Positions 33,734 through 63,657 of a DNA stretch of 64,000 nt are shown here, in pieces. Position numbers and translations under genes: made by a program. How positions within the stretch are numbered: the first letter of the stretch is position 1; the number at the start of each line of letters is the position of its first letter. A model generated the notes under the pieces. That model was not told where the DNA came from. It saw only the letters and a program-made list of their open reading frames with translations, and did no database searches. Origin of the DNA: Hydra vulgaris (taxonomy: Eukaryota; Cnidaria; Hydrozoa; Anthoathecata; Hydridae); the NCBI RefSeq assembly GCF_038396675.1, contig NC_088921.1, positions 63,072,501 to 63,136,500 on the forward strand. The letters run 5' to 3'.

Positions 33734-33904
33734 ATGACGTCAGCAAGTGAAATTGAAGATTGGTTTAATGCAGTATCTCTTTACGATGAAGGAAAGGTAG
33801 AAAATGCCATTAAAAGCTTTGAAGCACTTGACCAAAATGGAAGAATAAAATTCAACATTGGCTGTGCTTACTTAAAACTAAAAGACGTACAATCAGCAGC
33901 TAAG
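33734..33904 (+). CDS. NCF2: NCF2-like exon 1 (first coding exon)
   Basis: 57 codons, [20 protein letters not shown] to LKDVQSAAK, covering the first TPR and part of the second (NAIKSFEAL-, [12 protein letters not shown]). Donor AAG|gtatat at 33905, phase 0. The frame is open ten codons upstream from 33704, but that part lies before the acceptor AG (33731-33732) and is probably not in the mRNA. Confidence 0.88.

Positions 33905-63657: not shown

Follow-up and report, generated by a model that had tools for sequence, protein, structure and literature searches.

A probable p67phox-like Nox activator gene of Hydra vulgaris and its tail-to-tail second copy

Proteins of the p67phox type turn on NADPH oxidases that make superoxide. 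Human p67phox (NCF2) has two SH3 domains, and its residues S37, H69, N104, L106 and D108 are Rac contacts. D67 and R102 have been described as critical residues for the binding of Rac, and activation as depending crucially on V204 (PMC2121648). NOXA1, a vertebrate duplicate with a C-terminal SH3 domain, has a TPR-activation domain region that includes a valine (V205 in human NOXA1), and a C-terminal SH3 domain is present in all vertebrate forms (PMC2121648). According to the same source, fungal NOXR and the p67-like protein of Dictyostelium both have a TPR N-terminus and a PB1 domain; NOXR is cited as binding the GTP form of Rac, an ancestral Phox system is argued for, and the Dictyostelium protein lacks SH3 domains and a typical activation domain. 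The p67phox-like protein of Ciona intestinalis has TPR and activation domains and is reported there without PB1; docking of its proline-rich C-terminus to an extra SH3 domain of p47phox has been proposed.

For cnidarians, this 2007 survey lists Nox2, p47phox and p22phox genes of Nematostella with no obvious p67phox in the genome version of that year. The Nematostella p47phox has several SH3 domains for which no partner was known, and the survey pointed to an unidentified p67phox or an unknown partner (PMC2121648). An NCF2-annotated transcript is up-regulated in diseased Acropora cervicornis (PMC3836749), and NCF2 protein is decreased in heat-stressed corals (PMC13093290). A preliminary description of the locus studied here dates Rac-regulated Nox activation to before the bilaterians; because the link between fungal NOXR and Rac and the coral NCF2 annotations are already in print, this conclusion is not novel. 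As to that description's remark on an animal without professional blood phagocytes, the literature disagrees: cnidarians are said to be without specialised immune cells in PMC2121648, whereas phagocytic, ROS-positive cells are reported from Nematostella and Pocillopora in PMC8350327. In the excerpts of the literature surveyed, we found neither a published description of a Hydra p67phox gene nor any account of the gene structure, apparent lack of SH3 domains and tail-to-tail gene pair presented below.

The window, i.e. the whole stretch of 64,000 nucleotides that was analysed, is C2:63072501-63136500 of a Hydra vulgaris genome assembly of 911.5 Mb in 15 contigs. It contains most of what is likely a protein-coding gene for a cnidarian p67phox-like Nox activator (copy A), which has a relative on the same contig (copy B). 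Like human p67phox, the Hydra gene combines TPR and activation domains, with the same R-to-V spacing and counterparts of D67, R102, N104, D108 and V204; unlike it, the Hydra gene has a long linker, no SH3 domain that could be found, a C-terminal block that is PB1-like by eye only, and two tail-to-tail copies. NOXA1, set against the Hydra gene by description only, shares the activating region with its valine and differs in its C-terminal SH3 domain; the cnidarian gene would predate the p67phox/NOXA1 duplication and be co-orthologous to both. Fungal NOXR is alike in its TPR N-terminus and similar basic layout and the Dictyostelium protein in its TPR N-terminus and lack of SH3, and both have the PB1 domain that is suspected in Hydra. 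The Ciona protein is alike in its TPR and activation domains but is described as having no PB1; in the Hydra gene, about 75 residues at the C-terminus form a conserved block.

The features of copy A are as follows, in window positions.

33734-33904, + strand: exon 1, residues 1-57, with the start codon and the beginning of the TPR domain; open, GT donor, phase 0; 171 nt in copies A and B
40545-40627, + strand: exon 2, TPR, carrying D66 (human D67); AG/GT borders; 83 nt in A and B
40719-40827, + strand: exon 3, TPR and the Rac-contact loop with R101, N103, M105 and D107, aligned to 1hh8; AG/GT borders; 109 nt in A and B
41090-41224, + strand: exon 4, end of the TPR domain; AG/GT borders; 135 nt in A and B
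48768-48818, + strand: exon 5 of the first reading, rejected here; 51 nt, phase 0 at both ends
62306-62413, + strand: exon 6, activation domain and best place in the window for the activation core; AG/GT borders; 108 nt in A and B
62632-62685, + strand: exon 7, activation domain with VIAA, in which V203 corresponds to human V204; AG/GT borders; 54 nt in A and 72 nt in B
62854-63657, + strand: exon 8, long linker with a conserved block at 62926-62961; AG/GT borders; 804 nt in A and 597 nt in B
65034-65173 (window-equivalent, right of the window), + strand: exon 9, joining in phase
65251-65353 (window-equivalent, right of the window), + strand: exon 10, joining in phase and ending in TAA

The preliminary description proposed an eight-exon gene at 33734-63657. 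When the exons were joined by script, all eight were found to be open on the + strand and followed by GT donors, exons 2-8 were preceded by AG acceptors, and the phases joined into one open frame of 505 residues. Seven of the eight stand, with fitting borders and phases, and exon 5 is supported neither by copy B nor by the alignment to NCF2. Without it, exons 1-4 and 6-8 make up the first 488 codons of copy A; the whole protein has 568 residues, and its stop codon lies 1,353 bases right of the window end. The intron between exons 4 and 6 (41225-62305) is 21 kb in length and contains transposon remains, which are listed here together with an open reading frame elsewhere in the window.

49595-50083, - strand: open reading frame for a hAT dimerisation domain, inside the intron
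53776-54519, - strand: reverse transcriptase open reading frame, inside the intron
60952-61410, + strand: degenerate reverse transcriptase, inside the intron
8905-9777, - strand: open reading frame with a weak TNP-like match (a transposase-type RNase H domain), under the Pfam cut-off

A genome search with the TPR part gave eight matching places among the 12 candidates scored, all of them within two genes, copies A and B. Copy B (C2:63364416-63342206, minus strand; 508 residues) lies tail to tail with copy A at a distance of 204 kb. Exons 1-4 and 6-10 each have a counterpart there, of the same length as in copy A in the case of exons 1-4, 6 and 10, and the protein encoded by exon 1 is 57.9% identical between the two. 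Over codons 1-219, dN is 0.24 and dS 1.53, which gives a dN/dS of about 0.16, well below 1; over the last 73 codons dN is 0.22 and dS is saturated. The activating part and the C-terminal block thus both look to be under constraint; the linker that joins them is poorly conserved between the copies over much of its length. Inside the diverged linker, after the activation domain, the block TMLE(Q/E)IRQPERK (62926-62961, residues 245-256) is kept in both copies. This block bears what we take to be a vague resemblance to the WH2 actin-binding motif; Pfam shows no match, and a WH2-like reading was rejected.

Exon 5 was examined against both copy B and NCF2. An ungapped, fixed-length scan at AG sites found no counterpart in the matching intron of copy B; the best-scoring place in that scan resembles, by eye, a piece of reverse transcriptase. 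With exon 5 included (505-residue query), the match to the NCF2 chain 1hh8 scored 108.0 bits and had three gaps totalling 17 residues at exon 5. Without it (220-residue query), the score was 123.4 bits, with a single 1-residue gap near position 31; the change in score also reflects the different query lengths, while the first alignment plainly shows gaps at exon 5 that are gone from the second. Because it has no match in copy B and because the alignment to NCF2 has these gaps only when it is included, exon 5 is rejected as probably a false exon. Copy A might instead genuinely include it through alternative splicing: it is flanked by AG and GT and is in phase 0 on either side, so that inclusion preserves the frame, and a diverged relative could escape a scan of this kind in copy B. 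However, no such relative was seen, and the exon would add 17 residues where the human protein and copies A and B are otherwise equal in length, so that we regard alternative splicing as very unlikely. If exon 5 is false, the activation valine is V203 and not V220; the latter number, given in the preliminary description, is reproduced only when exon 5 is included. The numbers R101, N103 and D107 are reproduced from the chosen start codon, also without exon 5.

The best natural matches of copy A without exon 5 in a phmmer search of PDB are NCF2 chains, namely 8wej_D (E-value: 6.6e-35), 1hh8 (E-value: 9.3e-35) and 1e96 (E-value: 6.2e-33). The alignment to 1hh8 is collinear across the TPR and activation domains, and it passes without a break from the former into the activation core. 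Over human residues 33-208, 64 of 176 residues are identical in copy A and 62 of 176 in copy B. Identity to human p67phox is concentrated in the TPR part (50/128 in A, 49/128 in B) and the activation core (10/15 in A, 9/15 in B), with 4 of 33 residues identical in each copy in the stretch between them. The N-terminal domain, which is collinear with the TPR domain of NCF2, matches Pfam TPR_2 with E-values of 1.1e-15 (A) and 1e-13 (B). A single-sequence structure prediction with exon 5 included reached a pLDDT of 37.9 and gave no support for this reading.

Could this be an ordinary TPR protein that merely resembles p67phox? All of the Pfam matches above cut-off in both copies are to TPR families, and consensus TPR designs score well: the designed eight-repeat chain 9qhb outscores NCF2 over the whole chain, as the sum of eight local matches of about 30 bits each. 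On this account the TPR part would not by itself decide the matter. The activation domain does decide for kinship with NCF2, because exons 6 and 7 by themselves have NCF2 as their top PDB match (E-value: 0.0041, with the next, unrelated chain at 0.58) and because none of 20,000 shuffles reached the activation-core score. Similarly, when the window was scanned in six frames with the 14-residue human core, position 62372 on the + strand scored 40 and the runner-up place 22. The RGN-x-x-x-DY loop and the counterparts of D67 and R102 are also kept, and the alignment continues ungapped out of the TPR domain into the activation core. We therefore give the ordinary TPR protein almost no credence and follow the preliminary description in its assignment of copy A to the p67phox/NOXA1 type, on the basis of a comparison with NCF2.

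Residues were numbered by alignment, in which human n equals Hydra n-1 from human residue 33 onward. Both copies have the human residue at the positions of D67, R102, N104, D108, K196, L199, G200 and V204. This bears out the proposed conservation of R101, N103, D107 and an activation valine (V203 without exon 5), all common to A and B, and adds D66, the counterpart of human D67, to the set. The spacing between R101 and V203 in Hydra equals that between R102 and V204 in the human protein. Other positions vary: human Y198 is kept in copy A and is phenylalanine in copy B, L106 is replaced by methionine and V205 by isoleucine in both copies, human S37 corresponds to G36 in A and S36 in B, and human H69 corresponds to L68 in A and F68 in B.

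SH3 and PB1 domains had been expected just right of the window. In a genome scan with SH3_1, none of at least 108 matches (a lower bound, only the best candidates having been scored) fell within C2:63.1-63.37 Mb, i.e. none in copy A or B. Pfam showed no SH3 domain in B or in A, the latter taken as the 505-residue model, and when the sequence in and near both genes was scanned for one SH3 end pattern, the only match was interrupted by stops. Seven of the open stretches of at least 45 residues right of exon 8 (three between exons 8 and 9, four past the gene) gave four matches with E-values of 0.075-0.24, all below the cut-off and none of them to SH3. As these searches revealed no SH3 domain, the gene belongs with the p67phox-like Nox activators and is not p67phox in the strict vertebrate sense.

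At the C-terminus, stop codons directly follow the same conserved block of about 75 residues in both copies (61% identical between A and B). The block is PB1-like by eye, and we treat a PB1 domain there as a hypothesis. Pfam showed none, the best PDB matches (E-values: 2.6 and 6.7) were both unrelated proteins, and the C-terminal blocks were absent among the seven PB1 matches of a genome scan. Out of 5,000 shuffles in each case, the score of copy A against human PB1 was reached by 840 in local and by 890 in global comparison, and that of copy B by 105 in local and by 16 in global comparison. Both copies have glutamate at what we take to be the position of human K355. Thus, of the two expected domains, SH3 was not found by genome scan, Pfam or end pattern, and for PB1 there is a candidate block judged by eye.

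These data also bear on whether a vertebrate-like p67phox is present, with SH3 and PB1 exons that went undetected or dropped out of the assembly. The PB1-like appearance of the block, the copy B shuffles and the fact that the count of SH3 matches is a lower bound speak for this reading. Both copies, however, have stops straight after the same conserved block, none of the 108 SH3_1 matches lies within C2:63.1-63.37 Mb, Pfam finds no SH3 in A or B, the end-pattern match is broken by stops, and the copy A score against PB1 is reached by 840 or more of 5,000 shuffles. Missed or lost domains are accordingly improbable, and an activator ending at the conserved block is the reading retained here.

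The preliminary description also called for a search of the genome for partners, and candidates for Nox2 and p22phox are indeed present. On C3, pieces near 22.45 Mb read AVDGPFGTAS, GAGIGITPFASILKSIWY and a 26-residue stretch, with human NOX2 as the top match, and a further NOX2-like piece reads LEWHPFTLTS. These are exons only and not a full gene model (E-value: 1.2e-13, and 1.5e-10 to 3a1f). They are presumably of NOX2 rather than NOX4 type, judging by their motifs, and NOX1, NOX3 and NOX4 are absent among the PDB matches. NOX4 has been reported in both of the cnidarians examined in PMC5372347. On C15, an exon of p22phox matches PF05038 with an E-value of 1.3e-8, over the cut-off, and contains the proline-rich sequence AQPPSVAPPR; of 14 control genomes, E. 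coli gave a match, and this was below the cut-off. An open frame about 0.8 kb from this exon (piece coordinates 472-672) looks reverse-transcriptase-like by eye.

Elsewhere on C15, at 9.51 Mb, a single frame of 475 residues (piece coordinates 607-2034) has ferric-reductase, FAD-binding and NAD-binding domains. It was rejected as the NOX2-like gene, being a different gene from the split exons on C3, and may belong to the cnidarian Nox proteins that PMC9421330 mentions as unclassified.

With human p47phox as the query, 12 genome matches were obtained, all at query position 149 or later, which is the SH3 part, and none was assigned to a p47phox gene. The same holds for 17 PX matches in the genome, of which those that are legible have, to the eye, the look of sorting nexins or of a PI3K-like protein. 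From a library enriched for septic-injury genes, an EST of Hydra resembling p47phox has been reported (PMC2386466), and a Hydra Rac has been published (PMC7600811). At C1:72300088-72300765, one frame of 337 residues contains three SH3 domains and weakly matches the SH3 part of p47phox.

Taken by its sequence, copy A is presumably expressed and its product predicted to bind Rac and activate an oxidase. The TPR N-terminus most likely binds Rac-GTP via D66, R101, N103 and D107. In the activated complex, the NADPH domain of NOX2 has an insertion to which p67phox and Rac dock, and the dehydrogenase domain of the enzyme rotates and compacts (PMC13296129). Because the residues are conserved and the spacing is equal, the same mechanism is likely in Hydra, although this step is deduced by comparison. 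Alternatively, a p67phox-like gene might have changed its partner, serving a Nox without Rac or using its TPR part for another small GTPase. The contacts at S37 (in A) and H69 are changed, as this reading would allow, and no SH3 domain for docking was found. Nevertheless, D67 and R102, the residues described as critical in PMC2121648, are kept in both copies along with N104 and D108 across a dS of about 1.5, and we consider a changed partner unlikely and Rac the more probable ligand.

Docking is probably unlike that of the vertebrate tail-to-tail SH3-PRR pair, because an SH3 domain was found in neither copy. The linker or the C-terminal block would most likely meet a module of an organiser protein; this is a guess by analogy, the reverse of the proposal for Ciona. 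It is conceivable, though we hold it with less than even expectation, that an SH3-free activator made up of TPR, activation domain, linker and PB1 is the ancestral form in animals, that SH3 docking of p67phox came later, and that A and B, with similar activating parts and different linkers, give one Rac-switched oxidase two docking partners. If so, the Hydra layout would be that of fungal NOXR and, minus the typical activation domain, of the amoebal p67 protein. The apparent lack of SH3 domains also fits the model in PMC2121648, in which p67phox has a constant activating half and a variable docking half. The gene pair is a gap-filling addition to a known family of Nox activators and represents a complete candidate activator in a cnidarian that is open to ordinary laboratory assays.

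The sequence upstream of the copy A start codon has further splice-like signals. At the ATG of copy B there is no T-rich acceptor of the kind seen in copy A, where a single base separates such an AG acceptor from the start codon that follows it (window 33720-33734). Further upstream in copy A, a possible small exon is bounded by an acceptor before 33599 and a donor after 33664. The acceptor and small exon could mark an intron in the 5' UTR or a site for a trans-splicing leader.
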